A stretch of DNA of 25,059 bases from the IMG/VR virus record IMGVR_UViG_3300042691_015741, positions 1 to 25,059 of that record; one strand, 5' to 3'. The translations under genes and the position numbers were made by a program. Every line of letters begins with the position of its first letter. Position 1 is the first letter of the stretch. Below are positions 1,726-21,078 of this stretch, one piece after another. A model generated the notes under the pieces. The model was not told the origin of the DNA. It ran no database searches and saw nothing but the letters and a program-made list of their open reading frames with translations. Origin of the DNA: a virus.

Positions 1726-2997
1726 GTGCCGGTGCGGGTAGGCTATTGCAGGGTCTCAACCAAGTCGGCTGAGCAGTCCGCGTCAATCGAGGCCCAAGCC
1801 CAGCGCTTGACTGACTACGGCTGCGACCGCGTGCTCGTGGATCACGGCATCAGCGGCTTTAGGGAGGCTGGGCGTAAGGGCAGCGCCTTCCCAGAGCTGA
1901 TCGACCTGATCCTGTCGGGGGTCGCTACCGAGGTCGTCGTCTCCAACTTTGACCGCACCCAACGGCGGGCCAAGTGGGGCGCCCAGTTGCTGGATGCGCT
2001 TGAAACATCAGGCTGTCGGCTGCTGGAGCTGGACACGGGCACCTGGCTGGACCCAGCCAACAACCCAACCGATGTGTTGATGGCACAGATCCGCAGTGCC
2101 GTTCAGGAAAACGAGTCTCGAATCAGGCGCCTGAAGGTGAGGAAGGCGTTGGCGGAGCGCAGAGCGCAAGGCAAGTACGCCAGTGGGAAGGTGCCGTTTG
2201 GCTACCAGCACGTAGATGGCGAAGTCTTGCCACACCCCGAGCAGTGGGAGGCCGCCAAGGAGCGCTGGCAGCAGCTGGCCGACCTGGACTTCAATCTGGC
2301 CGGCTGGATCAAGCGGTACAGCGCTGAGATCACCCCGCGAGGCATTAAGGCGTGGGTTGTTAATCCAACCCTGCGCGGCAGTGTTCACCGCAGGCCCGGA
2401 ATGGTCTGCGAGCCACTAATTACTCCGCAGCAGTGGGCCGAGGCTCAGTGGCATCTCAAAATTCGCACGGTTGCCCGCGGGGTAGGGCTTGACCGTCAAG
2501 TCCACCTGTTCACGGGTCTGGTCAAGTGCGAGGTCTGCGGCAAGAGCCTGCACAACGTCCGTGATCGCGCCATCCCGCGCTTGAAGTGCAAGACCCGTCA
2601 CTGCACCCGGTACGGGCAGGGGCTGCGAGTGTCCCAAGTGCGGGAACAGGTGATCGCTGCACTGACTGAGCGCCACCAGCAGATGGCTGAGTTGGCATCT
2701 ACTGCCGTTGTCATCGAGACACCAGAGCAGCTGCAGCTCAAGACGGAGATCGCCACGTTGGAGCAGGTAGCTCATCTCCCTGGCGTAGCCGAGGTGCTTG
2801 CACAGCAAAAAGCCCAGCTGGCTGCCATGACGAAGCAACCAACTGGGCCAAGGCTTGAGCTGTTGTCAGACCTGTTCGCTGATCCCACCACGCTGGAGCT
2901 GGCAACTGATGAGGAGTTGCGAGCTGTCGTGATCGAGTTCATTGGCTCGATCGTGTGGCTGGGTGGGCTGGAGAGCCTGCGCATCACGCTTCGCTAG
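1726..2997 (+). CDS. Large serine recombinase (XisF-like integrase/excisionase)
   Basis: A 423-residue site-specific recombinase. Residues 1-140 form the resolvase catalytic domain: GYCRVST places the nucleophile at Ser11, and NFDRTQRR (75-81) carries the conserved arginines. A recombinase domain follows (about 145-245, GKVPFGY and TLRGSVHRRPG), then a zinc ribbon (CEVC at 268-271 and CKTRHC at 288-293) and a helical C-terminus that probably includes the coiled coil governing synapsis direction. The closest relatives I can name are XisF-type recombinases that excise DNA elements in cyanobacteria. It starts with GTG only 31 bp from the divergent HNH gene and has no clear Shine-Dalgarno sequence. 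It probably integrates or excises this element or a smaller neighbouring one. A second, tyrosine-type integrase lies at 15.2-16.1 kb. Confidence 0.93.
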   Translation: MPVRVGYCRVSTKSAEQSASIEAQAQRLTDYGCDRVLVDHGISGFREAGRKGSAFPELIDLILSGVATEVVVSNFDRTQRRAKWGAQLLDALETSGCRLLELDTGTWLDPANNPTDVLMAQIRSAVQENESRIRRLKVRKALAERRAQGKYASGKVPFGYQHVDGEVLPHPEQWEAAKERWQQLADLDFNLAGWIKRYSAEITPRGIKAWVVNPTLRGSVHRRPGMVCEPLITPQQWAEAQWHLKIRTVARGVGLDRQVHLFTGLVKCEVCGKSLHNVRDRAIPRLKCKTRHCTRYGQGLRVSQVREQVIAALTERHQQMAELASTAVVIETPEQLQLKTEIATLEQVAHLPGVAEVLAQQKAQLAAMTKQPTGPRLELLSDLFADPTTLELATDEELRAVVIEFIGSIVWLGGLESLRITLR

Positions 2998-3035: not shown

Positions 3036-3944
3036 TCATGCAGCGCTCTTGTATGCCTGGCGGCGGAGCTTGTTCAGCGAACGCTGCTCAGAGGATTGAA
3101 TGGCCTGCCTGGTGCAGCCCAGCTGACGGCTGGCTTCGACCTGCGAACACGGCGTCTTGCCTTTAAGCCCAAAGCGCATCGACAGCACATCGGCCTGTTG
3201 CTCTGTCAGTTGTGACATCCACAGGCTCAGGCGTTCAATGCCGTCGGCCACCTCCATAACGGCCATGGGGCCGTCTTCAGTGCCCGCCAGCATCTCCAGC
3301 CGTGTTGACGAGTCATCGTTCGAGGTGCAGCGCTGATCAAGGCTCGTTGGGGCCTCGACATGGTTGAGGTAATGCCGCATCACATGGGGTGTGATGCCAC
3401 AGAACTCGGCGCATTCCTCTGGTGTGGGGCTCCGCCCGTTGTCCTTGACGAACACAGGCACCCAGCCGCGAAGCTTGTTCAGGCAGTCAATGGCGTTGAC
3501 TGGCAGGCGGATGCTGCGGTCCTGTTGGCTGATGGCGCGGCTGATCCCCTGGCGGATCCACCAATAGGCATAGGTGGAGAACTTATAACCGCGGGTGGGA
3601 TCGAATTTCTCGATCGCCCGCGACAAACCAAAGCTGCCCTCCTGGATCAGATCGCTCATCTCCAGGTTGCGCACTGCGCAGAGGTAGCGCTTGGCGACAT
3701 TGACAACCAGCCGCAGGTTGGCGTTGAACATGCGCTCGTAAGCGCGGCGGCCACGGCGAATGGCGCGGCGCTGTTCAGGCGTTGGCGCTTCAACGCCCCT
3801 AACAACGATCCAGTCCTGGACGGCGCGACCGAGAAGAAGCTCCTCTTCATGGGTCAGCAGGGGGACACGGCCCGCTTGGTCCAGGAACCAGGAGATCGCA
3901 TCCCGATCACGGGAGGTGCTGCGTGAATAGTCGCGCCGTGCCAT
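3036..3944 (-). CDS. Group 2 RNA polymerase sigma-70 factor
   Basis: A 302-residue complete primary-like sigma factor. Region 1.2 is at about 15-45 (ISWFLDQAGRVPLLTHEEE). Region 2 is at 73-148, with LIQEG for core binding and FSTYAYWWIRQGI for -10 recognition and melting. Region 3 is at about 150-215 and region 4 at about 235-300. The region 2 sequence is close to cyanobacterial SigA/B/D-type proteins, so it should recognise TANNNT-type -10 boxes. The region 4 helix-turn-helix (CTRQAIQSSEQRSLNKLRR) departs from the usual VSRERVRQIE, suggesting altered -35 or activator contacts. It is the last gene of the leftward early operon, overlapping its upstream neighbour as TGATG. It probably redirects host polymerase to phage promoters. 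Acquisition from a host group 2 sigma is inferred. Confidence 0.93.
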   Translation of the reverse strand: MARRDYSRSTSRDRDAISWFLDQAGRVPLLTHEEELLLGRAVQDWIVVRGVEAPTPEQRRAIRRGRRAYERMFNANLRLVVNVAKRYLCAVRNLEMSDLIQEGSFGLSRAIEKFDPTRGYKFSTYAYWWIRQGISRAISQQDRSIRLPVNAIDCLNKLRGWVPVFVKDNGRSPTPEECAEFCGITPHVMRHYLNHVEAPTSLDQRCTSNDDSSTRLEMLAGTEDGPMAVMEVADGIERLSLWMSQLTEQQADVLSMRFGLKGKTPCSQVEASRQLGCTRQAIQSSEQRSLNKLRRQAYKSAA

Positions 3945-4234
3945 CAGAACAAGTCCTCAGGCTTGATCGGTGCCGGATCAGAGGTGACGCCCAGCAGGTA
4001 ATCGTTGCCGGCCTTGCTGGTGCGTGGCAGCAGCTTTTGGCTAACGGTGACGCAGGCTTCGCCCTTCTGATTGGTGGTGATCAGAGCAGCCTCACTGTTT
4101 GCCCAGGCGTAAAGGGCATTGATCTGCTCAATAGGCCATTCAGACTTGGCCCAGAACTCATCGGTCTTGCCTTCGATCTTGCTGCGGTTGAAGGTCGAGA
4201 ACAGGGTGAAGGCGTTGGCGGGAAAGTCACTCAT
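3944..4234 (-). CDS. Hypothetical protein (96 aa), early operon
   Basis: A 96-residue soluble protein beginning MSDFPANAFTLFSTFNRSK. A helical, tryptophan-containing middle (FWAKSEWPIEQINALYAWA) precedes a beta-rich segment (AALITTNQKGEACVTVSQKLLP) and an acidic tail ending in IKPEDLF. I do not recognise the family. An acidic C-terminus ending in phenylalanine resembles single-stranded-DNA-binding proteins, but no OB-fold can be confirmed, so this is only a thought. It overlaps the upstream gene by 8 bp and the downstream sigma gene by 1 bp. Confidence 0.65.
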   Translation of the reverse strand: MSDFPANAFTLFSTFNRSKIEGKTDEFWAKSEWPIEQINALYAWANSEAALITTNQKGEACVTVSQKLLPRTSKAGNDYLLGVTSDPAPIKPEDLF

Positions 4235-4433
4235 GAGAAAGATGGAAGTAATCGGTGAGGATCAAACGGAGTGCGCTGTTGACGCTGAGGTCGCGTTCCT
4301 TGCAGAACTGCATCAGCGCTGAATAGGTCTCGGGCGTGAGCTTGGCGGAGATGCGGAAGCGGTTTTTCACCTCCTCTCGCGCTTGCCGAGCCCACTCGTC
4401 ACGCATGTACTGGTGAAAAGCCGCCTCGTTCAT
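4227..4433 (-). CDS. Small ribbon-helix-helix-like protein
   Basis: A 68-residue basic protein. The segment FRISAKLTPETYSALMQFC followed by RDLSVNSALRLILTDYF fits the beta-strand, helix, turn, helix layout of CopG/Arc-type DNA-binding proteins, preceded by a charged helical N-terminus (MRDEWARQAREEVKNR). It overlaps the upstream gene by ATGA and the downstream gene by 8 bp. It may regulate the operon or bind DNA in recombination or replication. The fold call is from pattern only. Confidence 0.6.
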   Translation of the reverse strand: MNEAAFHQYMRDEWARQAREEVKNRFRISAKLTPETYSALMQFCKERDLSVNSALRLILTDYFHLSHE

Positions 4434-4615
4434 AGGAACAGTGGCATCTGGATGTGATCGACAACGAGGTCGGGGTACAGGTGAAGGATCATCCGCGCCC
4501 GCTGCGATGCCACTTCAACAGATGAGAAGCGCAGCGCCAGGTTGGGATCCAACGTGAAGGGGCTGGTGGTGTCCCCAATCAGGCTGTGATCAGCCAGCCA
4601 GCTCTGGGTGCTCAT
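4430..4615 (-). CDS. Hypothetical protein (61 aa), early operon
   Basis: A 61-residue protein starting MSTQSWLADHSLIGD. The ATG at 4615 was preferred because longer in-frame versions add a serine/threonine/proline-rich stretch that is plainly the shadow of the upstream gene. It still overlaps that gene by 26 bp. The C-terminal half (RFSSVEVASQRARMILHLYP) is helical, and the protein ends IQMPLFL. No family recognised. Confidence 0.5.
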   Translation of the reverse strand: MSTQSWLADHSLIGDTTSPFTLDPNLALRFSSVEVASQRARMILHLYPDLVVDHIQMPLFL

Positions 4616-4811
4616 TGATTTGAGCAGGAAACGAGTCCTCGCGGGGAAGGCTCTGGAGGAGCTGGAGGCAGTTGCGGACGGTGGCTTCGTGTTGGGTGTA
4701 GTCGCCATAGGAGACAAACCGTGAGCGGAAGAACTGTTTGTTGGCTTGGCGATGGAGGTCATCGCGGAGGTCATGAAGTGCGGCTAGAGCGAGGTCGAGG
4801 TAGGGGCTCAC
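4590..4811 (-). CDS. Hypothetical protein (73 aa), early operon
   Basis: A 73-residue mostly helical protein (LDLALAALHDLRDDLHRQ, then ATVRNCLQLLQSLP) with no transmembrane segment. It starts with GTG at 4811, two bases past the stop of the ERF gene, so it is probably translated by re-initiation. No family recognised. Its position directly after the annealing protein suggests a recombination or replication accessory. Confidence 0.55.
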   Translation of the reverse strand: MSPYLDLALAALHDLRDDLHRQANKQFFRSRFVSYGDYTQHEATVRNCLQLLQSLPREDSFPAQINEHPELAG

Positions 4812-4813
4812 GA

Positions 4814-5521
4814 TCAGGAGGGAGGGAGCGCTGCAAGGAACTGTTGGATGAAGTCGCCGTGTTGCTTCTCTTGAAGGTGGTCGCTGATGCGGGCACGTTC
4901 AGGGAGATTGAATTTGCCGCGGTACTCGGCAACCAGCTGGTCAAACGCAGGTCGGTTGTCGGTCATGAGTTGCTTCATGACAGCCAAAAGCTCTTCACGT
5001 TCATCCTTGGCGAGCGGCGGCTCCACCTGTTCGGTGCTGGGTGACGCCTCAGCTTTAGCGGGCTTAGCTGCCGGTTGCGCAGGGGTAGCAGAAGTTTTAA
5101 CAGGAGCTTTCGTCTGCGGCTTGGTCTGCTGCAGCGGCGGCCGCTGATCGGCGCCATCACCGTCGTCGTCTTCCATGCCGGCGGCCAAGTTGAGGATCGC
5201 CAGCAGGGCAAATCGGCGCTGATAGGTCACAGCCCCGCCCCAGTCGTGCAAAGCGTTGCGGCCCTTGACCTCAATCAAAGGCACATCGCTGTCCACGGTT
5301 TCACCGCTGCCGTGGCGGAGAGTGGTGCGAAGGATGATGGCGCCTTCGGTTGGGATGAAGGTCTGCGTGACGGCGAGGCCGGCTTCGCTCAGTGGGGTGG
5401 CAATAGCGCTGAGCACATCAGCAAGGGAAGCAAAGGAGCCGTATTGGGCTTTGCTGTTTTTGTGGATGGTGCCGACGGCCTTGTGAAAGCTGGCCAGGGC
5501 GGTGGTGAGTGATTCAGTCAT
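4814..5521 (-). CDS. erf: ERF-family single-strand annealing protein
   Basis: A 235-residue recombinase of the ERF superfamily, which anneals complementary single strands and promotes phage recombination or circularisation. The N-terminal domain (1-125) shows the family layout: FHKAVGTIHKNSKAQYGSFA, LADVLSAIATPLSEAGLAV, then the GGAVTYQRRFALLAILNLAAG signature and the acidic EDDDGDGAD turn. A proline/alanine/lysine-rich linker (about 127-170) leads to a helical C-terminal domain. It overlaps its upstream neighbour by 8 bp and is the second gene of the leftward operon driven from about 5.78 kb. A partner nuclease is not adjacent; the PD-(D/E)XK nuclease at 10.3 kb on the other arm is a possible partner. 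Confidence 0.93.
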   Translation of the reverse strand: MTESLTTALASFHKAVGTIHKNSKAQYGSFASLADVLSAIATPLSEAGLAVTQTFIPTEGAIILRTTLRHGSGETVDSDVPLIEVKGRNALHDWGGAVTYQRRFALLAILNLAAGMEDDDGDGADQRPPLQQTKPQTKAPVKTSATPAQPAAKPAKAEASPSTEQVEPPLAKDEREELLAVMKQLMTDNRPAFDQLVAEYRGKFNLPERARISDHLQEKQHGDFIQQFLAALPPS

Positions 5522-5744
5522 TGATGCTGGGCAAACGTAGGGCCTTGCGAGCTGCGATCACGGCTAGGTGCCAGTCCTGAATGGCTACGCGCTGATCAGG
5601 GCTGAACGACTCCCAGTCGATCGTGTCAACGATGGAGACGATGACGGCGTATGCCTCGTCGAGGGCGTCGTCAACGGCTTCGATGGATTCGGCGCAGCGG
5701 TTGAAATAGTCCGCTGCTTCAGGGGGTGTGACTCGTTGAGGCAT
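5514..5744 (-). CDS. First gene of the leftward early operon, unknown (76 aa)
   Basis: A 76-residue acidic helical protein (AADYFNRCAESIEAVDDALDE, then AVAIQDWHLAVIAARKALRLP in essence, residues 52-72). The ATG at 5744 lies about 17 bp past the expected transcription start of the strong leftward promoter, and its end overlaps the ERF gene by 8 bp. The first codons carry CGAGTCACACC on the coding strand, the core of the leader motif found before other early genes here, which could mean this start evolved from such a leader. Function unknown. Confidence 0.6.
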   Translation of the reverse strand: MPQRVTPPEAADYFNRCAESIEAVDDALDEAYAVIVSIVDTIDWESFSPDQRVAIQDWHLAVIAARKALRLPSIND

Positions 5745-5767: not shown

Positions 5768-5796
5768 ACCATACGCGGCCAGGGTGGTTGGGTCAA
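5768..5796 (-). promoter_or_regulatory. Leftward early promoter
   Basis: On the minus strand: TTGACC, a 17-bp spacer, then TATGGT. Spacing is ideal for sigma-70, and the -10 fits TANNNT. Transcription would begin near 5761, just before the ATG at 5744. The -35 box lies within a candidate operator, so repressor binding would block it. Confidence 0.7.
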
Positions 5797-5804
5797 CCCC
5801 TACG
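5786..5804 (-). promoter_or_regulatory. Candidate operator site 1
   Basis: The minus strand reads CGTAGGG, GTTGA, CCCAACC: one full half-site of the motif that is perfectly palindromic at 10972-10990, with the same 5-bp spacing. It overlaps the -35 of the leftward promoter and the last codons of the regulator gene. Confidence 0.55.
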
Positions 5805-6494
5805 CATTGCGATCGGGGAAAGCGTTGCAGTGCCGCCGCCCCAGGCATTCAGTGCCTGCGCAGGGCGGCCCAATTCCCCGGGCACCGAAAGCGCTGTCGC
5901 TTCGTCACCTGACCAGTCGGACCAGCCGGCCAGCACCTCGCGGAAGCGGTCTAGCTCCGTGGCGGTGAGCATCGAACAGAACGGCTTGAGCCCCTCCCAG
6001 GCTTCCTTGGGGTTCAGCATCTGGTCGGTGGCAATGCGGCGGAAAGCCTCGCGGCACATTTCGCTGAGTCCCTTGGCGTCGTCATCGGTCAACACCGGCT
6101 CGGGCTCGGGCGCCAAGTATTCGTCCGCGAACGGTGCTTCACCAATAAATAAGGAGAAGAAGTCGCTGGCAGTGGCCGGCCGGCCGTCGGCGGTTATGAA
6201 AGGGTCAGCCTCCTTGAGGCGATCGCGCAGCCCGCGGGCGGTGACAGCGGGGAAGTCTTGTGCGGCGACGGAGGCGTTAAGCCGGCCAAGGGCTACCCAG
6301 AACTGGGGCTTGCAATCGAGCTTGCCTCTGGCCAGGAGCGATGCCTGGCTGTTCCACACCCCGCCGACGTTGCCAATGGCCAAGGAGAAGTCGTGAAAGG
6401 TTTGCTGCGACCAGCCGTTGCGCTTCATCCATATGGCGAAAGCCTTGCCGAAGGCGTCACGGTTTAGCTGCTGCTCGGCAGGGATGTCGGCCAT
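5793..6494 (-). CDS. Putative phage transcriptional regulator (repressor-like)
   Basis: A 233-residue soluble protein. Its N-terminus (residues about 10-75: AFGKAFAIWMKRNGWSQQTF, then FSLAIGNVGGVWNSQASLLARGKL) has the spacing of an XRE-like helix-turn-helix, with SQQTF as helix 2 and the VWNSQASLLARG segment as the recognition area. The remainder is helical with an acidic centre, and no peptidase or dimerisation domain is recognised. It lies leftward between candidate operators at 5786, 6522 and 6624, at the divergence between the two early arms, which is where a CI-like repressor would be expected. Its leader carries CTGAGTCACCCC. The repressor call rests mainly on location and the operator pattern. 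Confidence 0.55.
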   Translation of the reverse strand: MADIPAEQQLNRDAFGKAFAIWMKRNGWSQQTFHDFSLAIGNVGGVWNSQASLLARGKLDCKPQFWVALGRLNASVAAQDFPAVTARGLRDRLKEADPFITADGRPATASDFFSLFIGEAPFADEYLAPEPEPVLTDDDAKGLSEMCREAFRRIATDQMLNPKEAWEGLKPFCSMLTATELDRFREVLAGWSDWSGDEATALSVPGELGRPAQALNAWGGGTATLSPIAMRRG

Positions 6495-6502
6495 TGACTG
6501 AC

Positions 6503-6514
6503 GGGGTGACTCAG
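6503..6514 (-). promoter_or_regulatory. GAGTCAC leader motif before the regulator gene
   Basis: The minus strand reads CTGAGTCACCCC, 8 bp before the ATG at 6494. It is a variant of the CCGAGTCAC(A/C)CC leader found before four rightward genes. Confidence 0.4.
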
Positions 6515-6521
6515 CCTGAAG

Positions 6522-6540
6522 CGTAGGGGTAGACCCAGTA
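6522..6540 (+). promoter_or_regulatory. Candidate operator site 2
   Basis: CGTAGGG, GTAGA, CCCAGTA. It matches the left half-site and the CCC of the other sites at the same spacing and lies 28 bp upstream of the regulator start, consistent with autoregulation. Confidence 0.5.
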
Positions 6541-6594
6541 TTTGCATAGAGGCACGGCGTATCGGCCGCGACGTGCTGCAGGCTGCGTAACGGA

Positions 6595-6621
6595 TTGTGA
6601 CAGCCCTATTGCCCCTATGGT
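6595..6621 (+). promoter_or_regulatory. Candidate rightward early promoter
   Basis: TATGGT at 6616-6621 is identical to the -10 of the leftward promoter. The best -35-like sequence, TTGTGA at 6595-6600, gives a short 15-bp spacer, so the upstream element is weak. Operator site 3 begins two bases after the -10, over the expected transcription start, which would allow repression. Confidence 0.4.
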
Positions 6622-6623
6622 TG

Positions 6624-6642
6624 CGCAGGGGTCTACCCCAGT
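6624..6642 (+). promoter_or_regulatory. Candidate operator site 3
   Basis: CGCAGGG, GTCTA, CCCCAGT. Same 7-5-7 layout as the other sites with one change in the left half. It sits across the likely start of rightward early transcription. Confidence 0.5.
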
Positions 6643-6670
6643 GCTATGACAGATGCATCGGAGGGGGAAA

Positions 6671-6683
6671 CCCCGAGTCACCC
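6671..6683 (+). promoter_or_regulatory. GAGTCAC leader motif before the metallopeptidase
   Basis: CCCCGAGTCACCC, followed 7 bp later by CACACC directly before the ATG at 6697. It looks like a leader copy split by a short insertion. Confidence 0.45.
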
Positions 6684-6696
6684 GATTCCTCACACC

Positions 6697-7203
6697 ATGA
6701 AAAAGCTCTTCGCCGCAGCCTTCGCTGCACTTGCCATCGCTACCCCTGCGCAGGCCAGCACCGCTGACGTTCGTCAGCTCATGGACCTGATCAAGCAGAC
6801 GGGCACCACCATCAGCTTCAACACCAACCGTCAAGACTCCCACTGCATCAACAACGCTGGTTACTACTACCTAGATCACGACAGCAACCAAAAGGTCAAA
6901 ACTGACCTGCTCGTGATCTGCCGCGATCAGGTTGATCTCAACAACGCCGACAAGGTATGGGAAGCGCTGTCTCACGAAGCCACTCACATCATGCAGGCAT
7001 GTACGGGTGACACGGCGTTTACCGAGGAAGACCATCCCACCATGTTCCGCGAGCTGAACCGTAAGGCGCCTCACTACTCCAAGTTGGTGGATAACTACCA
7101 CGGACGCGACGCTCGCTACGAAGCCGAAGCGTTCTGGATGGAACTACAGCCCGAAGAAGACGTGATCGGGTACTTCAAGGACATCTGCTTCAAGAAGGAC
7201 TGA
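6697..7203 (+). CDS. Secreted HEXXH zinc metallopeptidase
   Basis: A 168-residue protein with a clear signal peptide: MKK, a hydrophobic core AAAFAALAIA, and an AQA cleavage site after residue 20. The mature protein carries HEATH (93-97), the zinc-binding HEXXH motif with Glu94 as catalytic base. ARYEAEAFWMEL (139-150) supplies a plausible glutamate third ligand, as in gluzincin-type enzymes. Several cysteines (50, 75, 102, 164) could form disulfides outside the cytoplasm. I chose ATG 6697 because it starts the signal peptide and follows CACACC; an ATG 17 codons upstream would bury it. As first gene of the rightward arm it is probably expressed early or in the lysogen. Its target is unknown; envelope proteins or peptidoglycan-linked proteins are guesses. 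Confidence 0.8.
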   Translation: MKKLFAAAFAALAIATPAQASTADVRQLMDLIKQTGTTISFNTNRQDSHCINNAGYYYLDHDSNQKVKTDLLVICRDQVDLNNADKVWEALSHEATHIMQACTGDTAFTEEDHPTMFRELNRKAPHYSKLVDNYHGRDARYEAEAFWMELQPEEDVIGYFKDICFKKD

Positions 7204-7222
7204 CCACCTCTCACCTGTTCAC

Positions 7223-7238
7223 CTACCGAGTCACACCA
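7223..7238 (+). promoter_or_regulatory. GAGTCAC leader motif before the 45-aa membrane protein
   Basis: CCTACCGAGTCACACCA directly abuts the ATG at 7239. There is no purine-rich Shine-Dalgarno sequence. Near-identical leaders occur at 7390 and 8851. Confidence 0.55.
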
Positions 7239-7376
7239 ATGAAAGAAACCAACAAGGCTGCCGTAGCCGCTGTCTTCTGCCTCTTCCTACTTGGGGCGCT
7301 TGGTTACACCGTTCGCTGCCACCCAAGCCTTGCTGCCTATTCCCATCTCGCACCGCACCAAGGCCGCTGCCGCTGA
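7239..7376 (+). CDS. 45-residue membrane or secreted peptide
   Basis: A small gene encoding MKETNKAAVAAVFCLFLLGA and continuing to a histidine- and cysteine-containing tail ending QGRCR. Residues 7-24 form a hydrophobic helix after a short charged N-terminus, so it is either a single-pass membrane peptide or a signal-anchored one. It is supported as real by the leader motif directly before its ATG, the same as before the genes at 7409 and 8870. It sits between a secreted peptidase and a methyltransferase. Function unknown. Confidence 0.6.
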   Translation: MKETNKAAVAAVFCLFLLGALGYTVRCHPSLAAYSHLAPHQGRCR

Positions 7377-7389
7377 TCTGTCGACTCAT

Positions 7390-7408
7390 CCACCCACCGA
7401 GTCACCCC
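7390..7408 (+). promoter_or_regulatory. GAGTCAC leader motif before the methyltransferase
   Basis: CCACCCACCGAGTCACCCC directly abuts the ATG at 7409. It differs from the copy at 8851 at two positions. Confidence 0.55.
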
Positions 7409-8134
7409 ATGAAAAGCTTCTCTAACTTCACAAACCAGTCCTGCTTTGACCTGCTTGCCACTGTTCCCACAGGCACCGTTGATCTCGTTCTGATTGACCC
7501 GCCCTACCTCATCAGCCGTGATAGCGGCTTCGAGTCCGGCAACAATCCTGATTACGACCGCCTCAAGATCAGCATTGATTTTGGCAAATGGGACCATCGT
7601 CTAGACGGATTCGACCAGGCCATTCACGAGTGCTACCGCGTCCTCAAGCAAGGTGGCACCTTCATCTGCTTCTACGACCTCTGGAAGATAACGGAGCTAG
7701 CTCAGACGATGGAGGCAGCCAAGTTCAAACAGCTGCGTTTCCTTGAGTGGGTCAAGACCAACCCCGTCCCCATCAATCAGTCGGTCAACTACCTGACCAA
7801 CGCCCGCGAGATCGCTGTCCTTGGTGTCAAAGGTGGCAAGCCCACCTTCCATAGCAAGTACGACAACGGGATCTATGAGTACCCAATCGAGCACAGCAAG
7901 GGTCGCTTCCATCCAACGCAGAAAAGCCTGAAGCTGATCAAGGAGTTAATTGAAAAGCACAGCAACCCAGGCGACGTCGTTCTTGACTGCTTCGCCGGCA
8001 GCTGCACAACAGGTGTTGCGGCACTGGAACTTGGCCGCGAGTTTGTCGGCTGCGAGCTGGACCCGGATTACTTCAAGCAGGCCAGCAAGCGCTTGCATCT
8101 AACCGCTACCGCTGCGCAGGGACAGCTGATCTGA
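7409..8134 (+). CDS. Beta-class DNA N6-adenine/N4-cytosine methyltransferase
   Basis: A 241-residue S-adenosylmethionine-dependent DNA amino-methyltransferase. The catalytic motif DPPY is at residues 30-33, preceded by VDLVLI, and the AdoMet-binding motif (VVLDCFAGSCTTG) is near the C-terminus. Catalytic motif first and AdoMet motif last, with HPTQKS between them, is the beta-class order. FAGSCTT varies from the usual FxGSGTT at one position. Its TGA overlaps the ATG of the next gene, an HNH nuclease, by one base. The pair reads as a type II restriction-modification unit, although an orphan methyltransferase that evades host restriction is also possible. Recognition sequence unknown. Confidence 0.9.
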   Translation: MKSFSNFTNQSCFDLLATVPTGTVDLVLIDPPYLISRDSGFESGNNPDYDRLKISIDFGKWDHRLDGFDQAIHECYRVLKQGGTFICFYDLWKITELAQTMEAAKFKQLRFLEWVKTNPVPINQSVNYLTNAREIAVLGVKGGKPTFHSKYDNGIYEYPIEHSKGRFHPTQKSLKLIKELIEKHSNPGDVVLDCFAGSCTTGVAALELGREFVGCELDPDYFKQASKRLHLTATAAQGQLI

Positions 8135-8829
8135 TGGCGCTGCTTACACGACTGCACACCATCACTGGCCGCTTTGTCTGGGATGAAGCGCTGCAGATGT
8201 GGCAACCCAACCCAGAGAAGCCCCCAAGCGACTGCGAGTGGCGCGTTTGTGAGCTCATCCGCCCCGATCGGAATGGCCACAGCGACTGGTTCGACGTGGA
8301 ATGGCTCAAGCGGCAGCTACCTGCCTGCGCAGATCGCATTGGCGGCAACGGGAGCAACATGTTTACCCGTCAACTGGCCAAGGACTTCCTGTTCGCTCCT
8401 GAACAGGCGCAACGTCGCCAAGGCTCCAAGGTGATCGCCAGGCGCGCCTACGGCCTCACCAAGGCACGCGCTGAGCAGTTCCCCATCCGAAAGGACATCA
8501 GGGACACGGTGTCAAAGGGCTTCTGCGCAGTCCTGCACACCAAGGCCCAGATCGAGGTTGACCACAAAGATGGCCGCAAGGACAACTGGCTGGTCAATGA
8601 CACTGTTCACCAGCGCCTTGAGGATTTCCAGGCACTTCATAAGACGGCAAACAACGTAAAACGTGGCGTGTGCGCCAACTGTGAGCGCACGAATCGCCGC
8701 TTTGATGCCCGCGTGATGGGGTTCACCGTTGGCTGGACTGAAGGCAGCGCCGAGTATCAAGGCACCTGCAAGGGGTGCTTTTGGTATGACCCGATCGCAT
8801 TTCGACAGAGCCTGATCAGCGCCGATTGA
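8134..8829 (+). CDS. HNH nuclease, probable type II restriction endonuclease
   Basis: A 231-residue protein with an HNH-type core: IEVDHKDGRKDN (residues 140-151, with DH and N), then LEDFQALHKTANNVKR (162-177, with a histidine and two asparagines). Two zinc knuckles follow, CANC (180-183) and CKGC (212-215). The C-terminal pattern (VCANCERTNRRFDAR, later FWYDPIAFR) is one I associate with HNH restriction enzymes, but I cannot name the recognition site. Translational coupling to the upstream methyltransferase (TGATG) supports a restriction role. The stop codon TGA is the start of a 16-bp sequence repeated after the next gene. No truncation is visible. Confidence 0.8.
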   Translation: MALLTRLHTITGRFVWDEALQMWQPNPEKPPSDCEWRVCELIRPDRNGHSDWFDVEWLKRQLPACADRIGGNGSNMFTRQLAKDFLFAPEQAQRRQGSKVIARRAYGLTKARAEQFPIRKDIRDTVSKGFCAVLHTKAQIEVDHKDGRKDNWLVNDTVHQRLEDFQALHKTANNVKRGVCANCERTNRRFDARVMGFTVGWTEGSAEYQGTCKGCFWYDPIAFRQSLISAD

Positions 8830-8842
8830 CGATGCGCTGCAG
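8827..8842. repeat. Direct repeat, copy 1
   Basis: TGACGATGCGCTGCAG. It begins with the stop codon of the HNH nuclease and is repeated exactly at 9179-9194, where it begins with the stop codon of the membrane protein. A CCACCT follows both copies within about 15 bp. The two copies flank the membrane-protein gene and its leader. Confidence 0.85.
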
Positions 8843-8850
8843 CAGTTGAT

Positions 8851-8869
8851 CCACCTACCGAGTCACACC
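8851..8869 (+). promoter_or_regulatory. GAGTCAC leader motif before the membrane protein
   Basis: CCACCTACCGAGTCACACC directly abuts the ATG at 8870. It is the best-preserved copy of the leader motif. Confidence 0.55.
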
Positions 8870-9181
8870 ATGACAACCCTTCAAACCGTCAATCCTGACC
8901 ACATCACCCGTCGTCAAAAGGCAAGCCCGCTTGGCGCTGGCATCTGCGTCGGCTTGGTTGGCCTTTTTGCGGCCGTGCCGATCGGTATCCGCCAGAAAGA
9001 CTGGAAAGTGCCAGTCTTCTCCGCTGGCGCTGCCTTTGCCGCTGCCTATTTCATTGCCTTGGTTACTTACTCCGAAAGCACGCAGGAGATAAGTCGTGGG
9101 GCGGCCAAAGCGGCGGGGAATATAGCCGGCGGACTGGCTGCCTATGTTCTGGTGCGCAAGAACAAGAAGGAGAGCGAGTGA
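8870..9181 (+). CDS. Small two-helix membrane protein
   Basis: A 103-residue protein with hydrophobic helices at about residues 22-40 (AGICVGLVGLFAAVPIGI) and 49-69 (VFSAGAAFAAAYFIALVTY). A third, glycine/alanine-rich stretch (84-95) precedes a charged tail ending RKNKKESE. The start at 8870 was chosen over an ATG eight codons upstream because the leader motif abuts it. The gene is bracketed by the 16-bp direct repeat, suggesting insertion as a unit. It could be a superinfection-exclusion or lysogenic-conversion protein, but no family is recognised. Confidence 0.65.
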   Translation: MTTLQTVNPDHITRRQKASPLGAGICVGLVGLFAAVPIGIRQKDWKVPVFSAGAAFAAAYFIALVTYSESTQEISRGAAKAAGNIAGGLAAYVLVRKNKKESE

Positions 9182-9326
9182 CGATGCGCTGCAGTATCTC
9201 CACCTGCTCCTGCAATTCCTGATTGCGTTGTAGCGCCTGGGCCAGCAACTCAAAAGGATCGTGTACGCCGTCGGCCACAAGCTGGCGGCGTCTTTGCTTG
9301 ATCTGAGCCTCGGTGGACGGGGCCAT
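9063..9326 (-). CDS. Leftward coiled-coil protein, 3' end disturbed
   Basis: An 87-codon frame whose first 49 residues look genuinely coded: MAPSTEAQIKQRRRQLVADG, then DPFELLAQALQRNQELQEQV, a short helical or coiled-coil segment. After ILQRIVT the frame runs antisense through the end of the membrane-protein gene and loses protein-like character. At the other copy of the 16-bp repeat (8827-8842) the same strand and frame reads VDQLLQRIVNRR and then stops, which looks like the original ending. The gene has a good promoter at 9353-9383. I take it as a real small gene whose 3' end was displaced or duplicated when the membrane-protein cassette arrived. Confidence 0.45.
   Translation of the reverse strand: MAPSTEAQIKQRRRQLVADGVHDPFELLAQALQRNQELQEQVEILQRIVTRSPSCSCAPEHRQPVRRLYSPPLWPPHDLSPACFRSK
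9179..9194. repeat. Direct repeat, copy 2
   Basis: An exact second copy of TGACGATGCGCTGCAG, beginning with the stop codon of the membrane-protein gene. On the minus strand it encodes LQRIV of the leftward coiled-coil gene. Confidence 0.85.
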
Positions 9327-10944: not shown

Positions 10945-10971
10945 TTGCAACAACCCTCTTTCATACCCTTG

Positions 10972-10990
10972 CGTAGGGTTGACCCCTACG
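10972..10990 (+). promoter_or_regulatory. Perfect palindromic operator candidate (site 4)
   Basis: CGTAGGG, TTGAC, CCCTACG: a perfect 7-bp inverted repeat with a 5-bp centre, in the 74-bp gap before the gene at 11019. It shares its half-site and spacing with the three sites around the regulator gene. The centre includes TTGACC, a -35-like hexamer, but I see no good -10 at the right distance. The preceding TACCCTTGCGTAG also resembles sequences at 23408 and 25032. Confidence 0.6.
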
Positions 10991-13762: not shown

Positions 13763-13923
13763 TGGATGTTGAAGTGCTGGACACGGAGCTGATCAAGGTC
13801 ACGCTCACCCGTGACGGATTCAGCGCTTCGGCCTTCGTCACATCGCATCATTTGGCTGAGCAGAAGCGCCCGCAGCTAGAAGCGGCCATCAACAGGGAGG
13901 CTGCGCGTGCCTTCAATCCTTGA
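13762..13923 (+). CDS. 53-residue protein between terminase subunits
   Basis: A small gene encoding MDVEVLDTELIKVTLTRDGF and SASAFVTSHHLAEQKRPQLE, ending RAFNP. A beta-hairpin-like N-terminus leads into an amphipathic helix. Its ATG overlaps the small terminase stop (TGATG), and its end overlaps the large-subunit GTG start by 17 bp, so it is translationally linked to both. No family recognised. Confidence 0.55.
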   Translation: MDVEVLDTELIKVTLTRDGFSASAFVTSHHLAEQKRPQLEAAINREAARAFNP

Positions 13924-15229
13924 CGCCTGCCCTGGTGGTCTTCTGCTTGAAGAGCCCATCACCGCAAGCGAGAGCACTGATTGGCTGCCGTTTGCTGAGC
14001 AGCTGTATGGCTCGTTGACAGGTCCTCAACGGCAGGTGTGGGACAGCCCTGAACGGTTCAAACTGCTGTGTTCAGGCCGTCGTTTTGGCAAGACCTACCT
14101 TTGCATCTCCAGGCTGGTGGCATGGGCTATTGAGCACCCTGGCAGCCTCAACTGGTATGTGACTCAGAATTACAAGTCAGCCAAACAGATTGCATGGCGG
14201 CAACTGCGCTCCATGATCCCTGTTGAAATGTTCGCCAAGAAAAATGAGGCTGAACTTTCAGTAGAGCTGAGCAACGGTAGTGTTATCGCTCTAAAAGGTG
14301 CGGAGAATGCAGACTCCCTGCGCGGCGTCAGCCTTTCCAGCCTGATCGTTGATGAGGCCGCCTATGTCAAGCGTGAAGCATGGGAAATGGTGTTGCGTCC
14401 TGCGCTGTCAGATCAGGGCGGCCCTGCCTGGTTCATCACGACCCCTGCTGGGTTGAACTGGTTTCACGAGCTCTGGGAACAGGCGCAGGAGGAGGACGAC
14501 TGGACGACGTTCAGCTTCACGACGATCGAGGGTGGCAACGTCCCGCCTGAAGAGGTGGCCGCGGCTAAGCGCACGCTGGATGAACGGACCTTTAAGCAGG
14601 AATACCTAGCCAGCTTCGAGACGTTGACAGGGCGGGTGTTCCCTGATTTCAGCGATGACAACATCAGCGACGACATCCACGACATGGGCGGGGACATCCT
14701 GTGGGGCACCGACTTCAACGTGAGCGTGATGGCTGGGGTGCTGGCCAGCAAGGTGGGTGACACGCTCCACATCTGGGACGAGGTGGCGGTGAAGCAGTCG
14801 AACACCGACGAGGTGTGCGCGATGTTGAAGGCGCGGTTTCCTGATCGGCGGATCGTGGCGTATCCCGATCCAACGGGTTCAGCGCGTAAGACCTCAGCTG
14901 CTGGTGAGACCGATCACGGGATTATCAGGCGTCATGGGTTCCAGTGCATCAGCCCGAAGCATCCATGGGCAGTGAAGGACAGGCTGAACGCAACGAACTG
15001 GCTGATCCGCACGGCGGCTGGGGAAATCCGCCTATTCATCCACCCGCGGTGCAAGAACACGATCAAGGGCCTGAAGAACGTGACGTTCAAGGAAGGGGCC
15101 GAGGACTTTGTGGTGGACAAGACCGCAGGGATCGAGCACTGGTGCGACGGATTGGGCTATTTGATCTTGTCGGCGATGAACCAAGTGAAGCCTTGGCAGA
15201 CAGGCAGTACGAATGTGGCGCTGTGGTGA
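13907..15229 (+). CDS. terL: Terminase large subunit
   Basis: A 440-residue packaging motor and nuclease. The ATPase domain has Walker A CSGRRFGKT (55-63), Walker B LIVDEA (146-151) and the coupling motif FITTPAG (176-182). The RNase H-like nuclease domain starts with GTDFN (Asp269) and continues with AYPDPTG (Asp321) and a late Asp near IEHWCDGLGY. It translocates DNA into the prohead and cuts it at headful or cohesive sites. It starts with GTG, overlapping the tiny upstream gene by 17 bp. It is followed, unusually, by a leftward integrase rather than by the portal gene, which lies 6.7 kb downstream. Confidence 0.96.
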   Translation: MPSILDACPGGLLLEEPITASESTDWLPFAEQLYGSLTGPQRQVWDSPERFKLLCSGRRFGKTYLCISRLVAWAIEHPGSLNWYVTQNYKSAKQIAWRQLRSMIPVEMFAKKNEAELSVELSNGSVIALKGAENADSLRGVSLSSLIVDEAAYVKREAWEMVLRPALSDQGGPAWFITTPAGLNWFHELWEQAQEEDDWTTFSFTTIEGGNVPPEEVAAAKRTLDERTFKQEYLASFETLTGRVFPDFSDDNISDDIHDMGGDILWGTDFNVSVMAGVLASKVGDTLHIWDEVAVKQSNTDEVCAMLKARFPDRRIVAYPDPTGSARKTSAAGETDHGIIRRHGFQCISPKHPWAVKDRLNATNWLIRTAAGEIRLFIHPRCKNTIKGLKNVTFKEGAEDFVVDKTAGIEHWCDGLGYLILSAMNQVKPWQTGSTNVALW

Positions 15230-15242
15230 GTAGTCATATCCA

Positions 15243-16130
15243 CTAGAGCACTGGCATTTCGTAGTCAGCGGTGGTGGCGGCGTAGTGCTTCCAGATCACT
15301 TCACTGGTGTTGCCAGCCCAGTTAGCGGCCTGAGTGACGGGGATTCCAGCTTCTAGCCAGCGGCTGATGGCAACGTGTCGGAGGTCATAGGGGCGGTATG
15401 GCTTCTTGATCAACCCAGCGCTATGCAGCTGCTGCATACGCTTGGCGAAGAAGCTCTGGAACGCCAAGCGGTTCCAGGGGAACACGTATTCACTGTGTTG
15501 CGGCAGGCCAGCAATGATCTCCTTGGCTCGGGCGTTCAGCGGCACCCAGCGTTTTTTGTTGGTCTTGGTGCTGTTCTTAAGGCCGTGGGTCAAGGTGTAG
15601 TTGCTGTGGACAAGGACGCGCTCACCGTCGATGTCGGTCCATTTGATGGCCCGCACCTCACCAGTGCGCATAGCGGTTTGCATCATGAACTCAGCAAACA
15701 GGCACCAGTTGACGTTTTTGTAGGCGAGCTTGGCTTCGAGGGCGACGAGCACCAGGGGGATCTCTTCCCGTGGGATGACCACGACTTCGTGATCGCTTTG
15801 AGGCGCTTTGGGCATCCTGAAATTGGCCACGGGGTTGCGCGGCAGGATGGCGATGTCTTCTGCTGACGCCCAGCGGTAGAGGCTGCGGACGTACATGCAG
15901 ACGCGCCTAGCGGCCTTTTGGGGCTGTTGCTGCAGGAGCCATGCAAGGACTTGCCGCCCTTCGGAGAGCTCTTGGATCGGGCAGCGTGCCAGCCATTTGC
16001 TGACCTGTGTGTAGTCGCTTGTGAGGCTGGTGGGGCAGAGGGAAACGCTGCGTTCTGCCTTGAAGAGCTCCCAGGTTTGCAGGAGGGTCTGAGTGGGCGC
16101 AGCGGGGTGCGCACGATAGTCTTCGGCCAT
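15243..16130 (-). CDS. int: Tyrosine recombinase (phage integrase)
   Basis: A 295-residue integrase. The N-terminal core-binding domain (about 15-105) is helical. The catalytic domain has TAMRTGEVRAIKW (Arg155), a beta-hairpin lysine near STKTNKKRW (189-193), PYDLRHVA (Arg251) and the nucleophile in WKHYA (Tyr283). The usual first histidine of HxxR is Tyr248, and the later His/Trp position reads AGNTS (Asn274). Both substitutions are in line with integrases I recall from cyanobacteria. It faces left, tail-to-tail with the large terminase (13-bp gap), inside the morphogenesis genes. An attachment site is expected nearby, but none can be identified from one sequence. A second, serine-type recombinase is present at 1726-2997. 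Confidence 0.93.
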   Translation of the reverse strand: MAEDYRAHPAAPTQTLLQTWELFKAERSVSLCPTSLTSDYTQVSKWLARCPIQELSEGRQVLAWLLQQQPQKAARRVCMYVRSLYRWASAEDIAILPRNPVANFRMPKAPQSDHEVVVIPREEIPLVLVALEAKLAYKNVNWCLFAEFMMQTAMRTGEVRAIKWTDIDGERVLVHSNYTLTHGLKNSTKTNKKRWVPLNARAKEIIAGLPQHSEYVFPWNRLAFQSFFAKRMQQLHSAGLIKKPYRPYDLRHVAISRWLEAGIPVTQAANWAGNTSEVIWKHYAATTADYEMPVL

Positions 16131-16144
16131 CGGGTCCAGTAAGA

Positions 16145-16219
16145 GTGGATCTGATCACGGGTCAGGCAGTTGACGCTGCGCTGGCCTACACCATTGCTAG
16201 CACGGCTGAGGGTGGTTAG
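16145..16219 (+). other. Gap beside integrase with a 24-codon remnant-like frame
   Basis: Between the integrase start (16130) and the next small gene (16249) there is one short frame from a GTG: MDLITGQAVDAALAYTIAST, ending AEGG. It reads like the C-terminus of a structural protein and may be the remains of a gene cut when the integrase arrived. Short inverted sequences around 16210-16230 (GGTGG and CCACT) are too weak to call. The integrase promoter and the attachment site may lie in this gap. Confidence 0.25.
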
Positions 16220-16248
16220 AGCCGACCACTAGGCGGCTTTTGAAGAAG

Positions 16249-16332
16249 ATGCCTGGCGTGCCCGTGGTGCGGAAAGTGATTGCTGTCAGGGCTGATGGCA
16301 CCGTGAAGACGGTGATCAATCGGCCTGCATGA
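16249..16332 (+). CDS. 27-residue late-region peptide
   Basis: A tiny gene encoding MPGVPVVRKVIAVRADGTVK and ending TVINRPA. It has a beta-hairpin look and no membrane segment. AAGAAG directly precedes the ATG, and a TTG three codons upstream is another possible start. The stop overlaps the next ATG (ATGA), which supports translation. Function unknown. Confidence 0.45.
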   Translation: MPGVPVVRKVIAVRADGTVKTVINRPA

Positions 16333-16493
16333 CCTGGAAGCCGCCGCGGCCACAGCGCCCCCGCGATCAGTGGGGGCAATTTCGTTCCAAGGCCAGCATC
16401 AAAGCTGAGCAGGAGGAAGCACGGTTTGAGAGCCTTTTGATTGCAAGGGAAGAGCTGTTCTGGCAGGGGCAGGAAGCCTCAGAGCAGAACTAG
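16329..16493 (+). CDS. 54-residue charged helical protein
   Basis: A small gene with a basic, proline-rich start (MTWKPPRPQRPRDQWGQF) and a long charged helix (KASIKAEQEEARFESLLIAR) to the end. It overlaps the upstream tiny gene by ATGA. It lies among late genes and may be a small virion or assembly protein, but no family is recognised. Its TAG stop sits within GAACTAGGAG, a weak relative of the late-region motif. Confidence 0.5.
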   Translation: MTWKPPRPQRPRDQWGQFRSKASIKAEQEEARFESLLIAREELFWQGQEASEQN

Positions 16494-16543
16494 GAGCTTT
16501 GCCTAGGCGTCAGCCCTACGATTGCGTAGAGACTGAGGTGGCC

Positions 16544-16795
16544 ATGGGGCTTCGCGGGTACAAGCGTGATGCGAACGGTCGCTTTGCTGGTGCTGGCGGG
16601 CAAAGGCGTCAGGAAGCCAGGCTTGCGGCGAATGAAAAGCGGACGCGGAAGCGGGCGGAGACGGTTACGGAGGTTGCGGCGTTAGGCGGCAGGTCTGAGA
16701 CGGTGCAGAAGATGGCGAAGAAGGTGCAGAAGAGTGCCAAGGTGAATGAGAAGGCCAAGAACGTCTACAAGAGCAAGCGGATCAGGGGTCGTTGA
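16544..16795 (+). CDS. Small very basic late protein (83 aa)
   Basis: An 83-residue lysine- and arginine-rich protein starting MGLRGYKRDANGRFAGAGGQ, continuing as a basic helix (VQKMAKKVQKSAKVNEKAKN). A start of the form KRDxNGRFA is common in small phage proteins. The high charge suggests DNA or RNA binding, perhaps packaged with the genome. ATG 16544 with GAGGTG upstream was preferred to a TTG at 16499. The palindrome CTACGATTGCGTAG at 16516-16529 precedes it. The late motif GGGGAAGCTAGG begins three bases after its stop. Confidence 0.55.
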   Translation: MGLRGYKRDANGRFAGAGGQRRQEARLAANEKRTRKRAETVTEVAALGGRSETVQKMAKKVQKSAKVNEKAKNVYKSKRIRGR

Positions 16796-16797
16796 TC

Positions 16798-16809
16798 GGG
16801 GAAGCTAGG
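16798..16809 (+). promoter_or_regulatory. Late-region 12-mer motif, copy A
   Basis: GGGGAAGCTAGG, 17 bp before the ATG at 16827 and 2 bp after the preceding stop. Exact copies are at 17117, 19876 and 21067. A purine-rich GAGAGG also lies nearer the start codon, so the 12-mer is not simply the ribosome site. Confidence 0.65.
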
Positions 16810-16826
16810 CGAGAGGTTCAGTAGCG

Positions 16827-17108
16827 ATGCCAGTTCCTAGCCCGCGTACACCGATCTGCGTGGCACGCGGCAGGATTGCTGATCTGCAGGCGAACGTTGG
16901 CAGCCTGTTAGAGGGGGAGATCTGTTATGCGCAGGATGAAGATGCGCTGTATGTGAAAGAGGGAGCTGTATTAGTGAGATCGACTGGTCGCCCTGTCACT
17001 TGGCAAGGAATCACGGGTCGGCCTGCTGGTGTGCAGCTGCTTGATCTGCTGCAGTGGAATGGCACCGACTGGGTGGCTGATCGACGTTTGGACGGGGGCA
17101 ATTTCTAG
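16827..17108 (+). CDS. Small virion/fibre-type protein (93 aa)
   Basis: A 93-residue protein that looks like the end domains of the next, larger protein joined without a shaft. Residues 13-50 (GRIADLQANVGSLLEGEICY, AQDEDALYVKEG) resemble the virion-anchoring N-terminal domain of phage fibre and tropism-determinant proteins. The end (LLQWNGTDWVADRRLDGGNF) matches the W(N/D)GTDWV and GTF ending of the 400-residue fibre protein. It is probably a minor fibre, collar or decoration protein. Late motif copies lie before and after it. Confidence 0.6.
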   Translation: MPVPSPRTPICVARGRIADLQANVGSLLEGEICYAQDEDALYVKEGAVLVRSTGRPVTWQGITGRPAGVQLLDLLQWNGTDWVADRRLDGGNF

Positions 17109-17116
17109 TCCTGGCA

Positions 17117-17128
17117 GGGGAAGCTAGG
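17117..17128 (+). promoter_or_regulatory. Late-region 12-mer motif, copy B
   Basis: GGGGAAGCTAGG within GGCAGGGGAAGCTAGGTCA, 20 bp before the fibre-protein ATG. The flanks CAG and TCAGCA are shared with copy D, so similarity extends beyond the 12-mer. Confidence 0.7.
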
Positions 17129-17148
17129 TCAGCAGTGCCTCAATAGTC

Positions 17149-18351: not shown

Positions 18352-18548
18352 TGAGCACTGCGCCTGGCATTGGCCCGCAGCTAAGCGCTGAGGAGCGCTT
18401 TGCTTTGGAGGTGACCAGGCGTATGGCTTATGGAGCTCCTAGGGAATCCTTGGCCTGGCTGATGCAACGGTTGCATCAGGACAATATGGTGCTGCGTAAG
18501 GCGCTGCTGGAGATGATCGGTGAAGATCAAAGCCAATTTGAGCCTTAA
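18351..18548 (+). CDS. Small helical late protein (65 aa)
   Basis: A 65-residue helical protein (LSAEERFALEVTRRMAYGAP, then WLMQRLHQDNMVLRKALLEM) with an acidic tail. It starts by a one-base overlap with the fibre gene stop (TGATG) and ends 29 bp inside the next gene. No membrane segment is seen, so it does not look like a holin. It may be a fibre-assembly or head-tail accessory; no family recognised. Confidence 0.55.
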   Translation: MSTAPGIGPQLSAEERFALEVTRRMAYGAPRESLAWLMQRLHQDNMVLRKALLEMIGEDQSQFEP

Positions 18549-18936
18549 GAAGTGGAACGGGCCTCAGCTAGCGCAGCGGGCTCGTTTTGTATTTGGCAAA
18601 TACTGCACGGAATTGTTCCCGCGGTTTCAGGACAGCATCGTGCAGCAGCGGTACGACTGGCCGCAGATCACGATTAGGAGCAACGGGCAGGTGGTGACCA
18701 GTCCGCGCAACATTGTGGATTCTGGGGCGTTCAAGCTGTCGCAGGAGCGCACGATGATCAATGCGACCACCTGCCTGTTTACCTGGAATGTGCCGTATAG
18801 CAGCTTGATCCTGACGGGGTATCGGACGAAGAAGGGTACGCAGATGCCTGCGCGAGACTGGATTACACCCGTTTTGAGGGAAGAGTTTCCGATGGCGCGG
18901 TTCTTTGAAGCTGAGTGGAAGAGGCTGGGCTACTGA
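18520..18936 (+). CDS. HK97 gp10-like neck/tail-completion protein (putative)
   Basis: A 138-residue protein. Its layout is an N-terminal amphipathic helix (WNGPQLAQRARFVFGKYCTE), a beta-rich core with SPRNIVDSGAFKLSQE (turning around a conserved-looking DSGAL/F-type motif), then RDWITPVLREEFPMARFFEA. This recalls HK97 gp10-type and related head-tail completion proteins, where IVDTGxL is common. It starts with GTG, overlapping the upstream gene by 29 bp, and ends in a TGATG overlap with the MuF-like gene. Neighbouring head and connector genes support the call. Confidence 0.6.
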   Translation: MKIKANLSLKKWNGPQLAQRARFVFGKYCTELFPRFQDSIVQQRYDWPQITIRSNGQVVTSPRNIVDSGAFKLSQERTMINATTCLFTWNVPYSSLILTGYRTKKGTQMPARDWITPVLREEFPMARFFEAEWKRLGY

Positions 18937-19886: not shown

Positions 19887-19887
19887 G
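19876..19887 (+). promoter_or_regulatory. Late-region 12-mer motif, copy C
   Basis: GGGGAAGCTAGG containing the TAG stop of the MuF-like gene and lying 11 bp before the connector ATG. AAAGGG nearer the ATG is the likely ribosome site. Confidence 0.7.
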
Positions 19888-19898
19888 TCCAAAGGGCA

Positions 19899-20483: not shown

Positions 20484-20504
20484 CAGGGTGCCTACCCTGT
20501 CCCT

Positions 20505-21077: not shown

Positions 21078-21078
21078 G
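21067..21078 (+). promoter_or_regulatory. Late-region 12-mer motif, copy D
   Basis: GGGGAAGCTAGG containing the TAG stop of the sigma-like gene, 20 bp before the GTG of the tail tube gene. It is flanked by GCAG and TCAGCA as in copy B. Confidence 0.7.

Follow-up and report, generated by a model that had tools for sequence, protein, structure and literature searches.

What does a short sequence do that recurs directly ahead of the start codons of unrelated viral genes? The question is raised by a linear IMG/VR virus entry of 25,059 bases (IMGVR_UViG_3300042691_015741; analysed at its full length and termed the window), in which a leader with the word CCGAGTCACMCC and the core GAGTCAC precedes several genes of a variable cargo slot. 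The leader occurs in a short form at start codons and in a longer, structured form ahead of the first cargo gene, and looks like a virus-specific means of switching on whatever genes get captured. Starts without a Shine-Dalgarno (SD) sequence dominate this phage, and the choice of such starts by ribosomes is poorly understood; a phage-specific leader that stands ahead of unrelated genes lends itself to probing this choice, with a single heptamer to mutate. The leader also suggests a route to immediate expression of captured genes, such as those for a probable restriction-modification pair and for secreted proteins.

Short and structured forms of the leader

Three exact copies of CCGAGTCACMCC are present in the window, each 0-1 nt ahead of an ATG (Table 1; all gene starts are predictions). 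An earlier note on this DNA, made from the sequence alone, had described near-identical sequences before the starts at 7239, 7409 and 8870, and these are the three exact copies. First-order Markov simulation (600 runs) gave 0.003 copies on average and 1 at most, and no simulated copy stood ahead of an ATG. Matches with up to three mismatches are not enriched (43 observed vs 46.7 expected), and the signal is therefore limited to copies with no or one mismatch. The short leaders lie 20-40 nt past the preceding stop codon with no -10-like box apparent upstream, and the structural region (13907-25059) contains no start-associated copy. As the note had stated, the leader has no SD sequence; this is not distinctive, given that an SD core is found at only about 10 of the 45 plausible starts in the window.

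One-mismatch copies also number three. One (6673-6684) sits inside the structured leader of the gene at 6697, and another (6503-6514, minus strand) precedes the divergent 233-aa gene at 6494, whose homologue in the related contig L123 has AGAGTCACCCTCAACTC-ATG at its start. The variants that had been placed ahead of 6697 and 6494 are thus real as one-mismatch words, while the supposed split copy at 6697 turned out to be a different, structured leader. The third copy (5725-5736, minus strand), absent from the earlier list, falls among the opening codons of a 76-aa gene (5514-5744, minus strand) within CGAGTCACMCC, and similar codons occur in L010, L122, L123 and L127. This word may be explained equally well by protein-level constraint on the residues RVTP, for which the counterpart in L124 has RISP. 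In total, GAGTCAC occurs 10 times in the window: five times upstream of starts, once just past a start, and four times antisense within genes or distant from starts. The first gene of the window, for which the note had suggested the same leader, is preceded by only 5 bases.

The structured leader before gene 6697 has the general form ATCGG-A-GGGG[loop]CCCC-GAGTCAC-CCGAT. The earlier note overlooked both this leader, which is probably transcript-terminal, and its conservation elsewhere: cargo genes headed by it occur in one host chromosomal island (G055) and in five further virus contigs, with one structured copy per genome. Pattern scans detected the module in L122, L123 and L124 and, among 400 Cyanobiaceae genomes, in none beyond G055. 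A covariance model built from five copies (window, G055, L122, L123 and L124) detected diverged copies in two contigs outside the building set, L127 (E=1e-7) and L129 (E=8e-4), and gave a doubtful match in L022, i.e., the L010 contig (E=0.02). A loose scan returned 16 stretches, including five true contigs (L122, L123, L124, L127 = L159 and L129 = L151); the other stretches gave no score with the model and are put down to chance.

Each of the seven clear copies has a -10-like hexamer (TATGAC, TATGAC, CATAGT, CATAAT, GATGGT, CATAGT and CATGAT) 5 nt ahead of NATCGG. From this fixed spacing the transcript is predicted to start at about AUCGG, downstream of a putative cargo-operon promoter (Table 1). 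Palindromes with four mismatches to GCGTAGGGGTNNACCCCTACGC lie at 6623-6644 and 5784-5805 (0.1 expected); further related palindromes were seen by eye at 6520-6540 and 10965-10990, and all four are near divergent promoters. The fold AUCGG-A-GGGG[loop]CCCC-GAGUCAC-CCGAU fits all five model-building sequences, in which the loop varies and the stems are constant, and this modelled secondary structure is likely; the 4-bp stems have a fixed sequence. Membership in a known RNA family was rejected, as an Rfam 15 covariance search of positions 6480-7450 gave no match and the G055 locus (L107) only implausible sub-threshold matches. Integration next to a tRNA gene, a possibility raised by a T-arm-like sequence before the L010 leader, was ruled out as no tRNA was found.

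Family specificity and the cargo slot

At the G055 locus (minus strand), four consecutive genes each have a GAGTCAC leader ahead of them. The leader of the first, TGCATCGGAGGGGGAGCACCCCCGAGTCACCCGACAACCACC-ATG, matches GATGCATCGGAGGGGGAAACCCCGAGTCACCCGATTCCTCACACC-ATG of gene 6697 in the window, and CCACCTAACGAGTCACCCC-ATG, CCACCACCGAGTCACCACC-ATG and CCACCTACCGAGTCACCCC-ATG follow. The order is the same in G055 and L123: the structured leader comes first and short leaders later. The G055 array adjoins a T5orf172 gene and has a phage-type integrase gene 3-4 kb away, and is therefore probably a mobile island.

In host genomes, the leader is at chance level. The word CCGAGTCACMCCATG has three matches in two of the 400 Cyanobiaceae genomes vs four for a backwards control; two of the three are in G055, and one of those two is a true member. 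No match was found in 12 genomes picked via a D1 (PsbA) search, which served only as a route to Cyanobiaceae genomes. The possibility of a common genomic word, raised by the earlier note as a check, is rejected by these counts. When the 7-mers ahead of starts are ranked across seven related contigs, GAGTCAC comes joint first (7 of 30 occurrences, p=5e-6); as related sequences are not independent, this ranking is no more than supportive. A 16-mer scan of IMG/VR gave eight matches, of which that in L010 is the sole clear leader and the rest are taken as chance. The known family thus amounts to one chromosomal island, six virus contigs in which the structured leader is clear, and a further contig whose leader is of the short form.

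The slot has constant borders and variable contents. The right border TGATCAGCGSCGRTTGACGATGCGCTG, the 3' end of a small convergent gene, is common to the window, L010, L122, L127 and L129, and on the left the 233-aa gene is shared with L010 and has a 213-aa homologue in L123. Between them, each phage has different cargo, which ranges from membrane or secreted proteins to a helicase and a probable type II restriction-modification pair. Window cargo starts with a signal-peptide protein, possibly a metallopeptidase to judge from its HEATH motif, followed by a 45-aa peptide, a methyltransferase and its ICEA-family neighbour, and a membrane protein; the ICEA-family gene is the probable restriction partner, making 7409-8829 a probable restriction-modification cargo. 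L122 carries a 150-aa membrane protein, L123 two secreted or membrane proteins, L124 a helicase-type gene, L127 a repeat-rich secreted protein, L129 two proteins and L010 one secreted protein. Among the cargo proteins compared, no homology extends beyond signal peptides; by eye, the L122 and L129 cargo share the N-terminal stretch NTELANAQR. DNA of the leader plus signal peptide is 75-81% identical between genes with unrelated mature proteins. Viral relatives of the methyltransferase (seven loci) have no leader, and the leader therefore goes with the slot rather than with that gene. In L010, SD-type cargo genes at 4100-4620 are separated by a repeated hairpin-like block, CCCCTAGTTAATAGGGGC.

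Leader and gene 8870 are enclosed by two 16-nt copies of TGACGATGCGCTGCAG, part of the TGATCAGCGSCGRTTGACGATGCGCTG flank, a duplication that reads as the scar of a leader-plus-gene unit inserted, with a downstream flank of its own, behind an existing flank. No dedicated recombinase or recombination site was found, so homology-assisted exchange suffices, and ordinary homology would be the simplest route. The earlier suggestion that the leader is the mobile end of gene cassettes is strengthened, short of proof, by the varying cargo, the constant 3' flank and the duplication.

Proposed function of the leader and rival explanations

The reading that we prefer, with moderate confidence, is that the repeat is a start-associated 5' leader or translation signal of this phage family, which also marks the 5' ends of exchangeable cargo. 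Retention of the structured leader before differing cargo in L122, L123, L124, L127 and L129 supports it. A signal at the RNA level is favoured by the orientation, the distance to the start codon and the absence of visible promoters within the operon; a role in translation is putative. The slot would be driven by one phage promoter with the operator-like palindrome GCGCAGGGGTCTACCCCAGTGC; the message would start at about AUCGG and form a 5'-terminal stem (AUCGG/CCGAU) that encloses a GC hairpin and leaves GAGUCAC exposed. Most later cargo genes would use a shortened, unstructured signal consisting of a C/A-rich stretch, CCGAGUCACMC and the ATG, which might replace SD pairing as a signal for initiation or regulation. 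Because the 16S rRNA has no complement of at least 7 nt, recognition would most likely fall to a trans-acting factor, supplied by the phage or by its host. As the leader is alike before unrelated cargo genes, it could, together with the constant 3' flank, supply homology for gain and loss of leader-plus-gene units. More specifically, and only tentatively, GAGUCAC may be what an SD-independent initiation system acting in trans recognises, so that captured cargo can be expressed through a standard leader; the structured 5' form could then set message stability or regulation, and bare repeats serve the later genes. A phage-specific translation signal had been proposed from the sequence alone; the reading as a phage-specific start signal has gained ground, without being proven, through the chance-level host counts, the 7-mer rank and the position of the leader before unrelated genes with no apparent promoter.

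Several observations weigh against the preferred reading. The sample amounts to only six virus contigs plus a single chromosome, the stems of the model-building sequences have no compensatory changes, and folding energies are not better than those of shuffled sequences. L010 has only a doubtful structured copy, along with SD-type cargo genes; the word is altered in L127 (GATTCAC) and L129 (AGGTCAC), and some cargo genes, such as ICEA in the window and the second gene of L129, do not have it. A match of at least 7 nt to the complement was sought in the 16S rRNA of G055 and none was found, leaving no known route for reading by the ribosome. Pairing with 16S rRNA was accordingly rejected; the leader does resemble CCCGTCACACCATGG of the 16S, a same-sense likeness that is attributed to chance.

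The identity of the leaders might instead reflect recent shared descent of 5' ends, the repeat having no regulatory job and being copied along by (micro-)homologous recombination via leader and flank. The duplication around the 8870 unit and the likeness of leader plus signal-peptide DNA across unrelated mature proteins would fit such 5'-end copying, but the core word is retained in G055, L123 and L010 despite drifted neighbouring sequence, the position next to the ATG is kept, and the same word is conserved in the structured leader across diverged phages. We regard this explanation as rather unlikely. An operator or promoter at the DNA level, with a phage or host regulator binding GAGTCAC near starts, seems improbable: the word does occur near the divergent start at 6494 and just inside the 76-aa gene, with operator-like phage palindromes close by, yet it is asymmetric, keeps a single orientation relative to the gene and stands at start codons inside an apparent operon without -10-like boxes upstream, and the 76-aa gene copy is explicable by the protein conservation described above.

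The compact 5'-terminal stem, invariant unpaired heptamer and variable loop would also be compatible with a riboswitch-like RNA that senses a ligand or binds a protein, the short copies being its remnants. This is very improbable, since Rfam gave no match, the size is below that of most riboswitches, neither a terminator nor an anti-SD switch is seen, and the short copies are precise rather than decayed. Chance or a host-wide start context deserves hardly any credence. SD sequences are absent from most window starts and CACCATG-like contexts recur, but the exact word occurs three times against 0.003 expected and is conserved at the same place in relatives, and the 400-genome count refutes a host-wide start context for it.

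Among known systems, the closest parallel is found in cluster K mycobacteriophages, whose start-associated sequences (SAS) are 13-bp asymmetric repeats, typically 3-7 bp before starts of non-structural genes; they are absent from the host, about half are extended by imperfect 17-bp inverted repeats (ESAS), and their function is unknown (PMC3203893). A survey of SAS (PMC12699233) and a description of cluster EF Microbacterium phages (PMC7302621) are also available. Like SAS, the leader is a short, asymmetric repeat that keeps one orientation near start codons, marks several non-structural genes within a single phage family, precedes unrelated gene families, is rare in the host and has an extended hairpin form. 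The SAS consensus is GGGATAGGAGCCC or GGGAAAGGACCCC, whereas the leader, CCGAGTCACMCC, is not within two mismatches of GGGATAGGAGCCC. Unlike SAS, which carry an SD-like core able to pair with 16S rRNA, the leader has no such core, stands 0-1 nt before the ATG (8-15 nt in variant and structured copies) rather than at the 3-7 bp of SAS (PMC3203893), has fewer copies and belongs to phages of cyanobacterial hosts. The extended form, found for about half of the SAS copies, occurs here once, heading the cargo operon where transcription is predicted to begin. Thus, the leader works like SAS, but since defining features of SAS and ESAS are lacking it is not a member of either. That unrelated actinobacteriophages offer such a parallel suggests a phage strategy that recurs and is still unexplained; in the present case no SD core confounds it. 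No cyanobacterial counterpart was found in the literature.

Integron gene cassettes carry a 3' attC and lie next to an integron integrase; here the repeat is 5' and no integrase adjoins the array, no dedicated attC search having been made. The predicted stem-loop with which the transcript would begin resembles ompA-type 5'-terminal stem-loops, which stabilise bacterial mRNA, but it would carry an unpaired, conserved heptamer, and this heptamer recurs before later genes with no stem. Morons are the general concept for accessory phage cargo genes, and temperate phages and satellites have cargo hotspots, such as the P2/P4 hotspots of antiviral systems (PMC9122126). The slot is like both in its constant borders, variable accessory genes and probable restriction-modification pair; a common 3' flank follows differing cargo in the window, L010, L122, L127 and L129. 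Of the moron hallmarks of an own promoter and terminator and expression in the lysogen, a promoter-like box is seen here. To our knowledge, descriptions of morons or hotspots do not include a leader that recurs ahead of one cargo gene after another.

Viral setting of the locus

The window encodes a temperate tailed phage (Table 1). Among the records nearest to the portal are those of cyanophages S-H1, KBS-S-2A and S-2L, with an identity of about 30%; no isolated phage is a near relative at the DNA level, and searches with the portal and the 233-aa gene gave no prophage of a named host. The portal relatives and the G055 island point to a picocyanobacterial host.

Table 1. Positions of leader copies, slot genes and phage hallmark genes in the window
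Feature	Position	Strand	Remarks
Serine recombinase (XisF-like)	1726-2997		
Sigma-70 factor	3036-3944	-	Early module
Erf-like annealing protein	4814-5521	-	
Word ACGAGTCACACC	5725-5736	-	First codons of 76-aa gene, just past start codon
233-aa gene	5793-6494	-	Left border; no family match; 72% identical in L010; 213-aa homologue in L123
Variant word CTGAGTCACCCC	6503-6514	-	Ends 8 nt ahead of ATG 6494 of divergent 233-aa gene
Predicted cargo-operon promoter	6621-6650	+	TTGCGC, 18 nt with operator-like palindrome GGGGTCTACCCC, TATGAC
Structured 5' leader	6657-6686	+	ATCGG-A-GGGG[GAAA]CCCC-GAGTCAC-CCGAT; GAGTCAC at 6675-6681; predicted transcript start
Cargo gene 1, 168 aa	6697-7203	+	Signal peptide MKKLFAAAFAALAIATPAQA; HEATH motif
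Short leader CCGAGTCACACC	7226-7237	+	Single extra A, then ATG 7239
Cargo gene 2, 45-aa peptide	7239-7376	+	Hydrophobic N-terminal part; no family match
Short leader CCGAGTCACCCC	7397-7408	+	Abuts ATG 7409
Cargo gene 3, type II N6/N4 DNA methyltransferase	7409-8134	+	PF01555 1.9e-37; PADLOC MTase_II
Cargo gene 4, ICEA family	8134-8829	+	PF05315 1.5e-31; start overlaps methyltransferase stop; without leader
First flank-word copy TGACGATGCGCTGCAG	8827-8842	+	
Short leader CCGAGTCACACC	8858-8869	+	Abuts ATG 8870
Cargo gene 5, 103-aa membrane protein	8870-9181	+	
87-aa convergent gene bounding slot	9063-9326	-	Conserved flank; no above-threshold Pfam match
Second flank-word copy TGACGATGCGCTGCAG	9179-9194	+	Slot 3' boundary; 3' end of convergent 87-aa gene
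Large terminase	13907-15229		
Tyrosine integrase	15243-16130	-	
Second sigma-70-type gene	20505-21077	+	Among structural genes
Portal	21898-23397		

Two sigma-70-type genes are present in this one phage, and a serine recombinase and a tyrosine integrase occur together in the same record. Among the late genes, a second repeat, GGGGAAGCTAGG, is found at 16800, 17119, 19878 and 21069 on the plus strand, about 18-28 nt upstream of the starts at 16827, 17149, 19899 and 21099, and is perhaps a late promoter or a further start-associated element.

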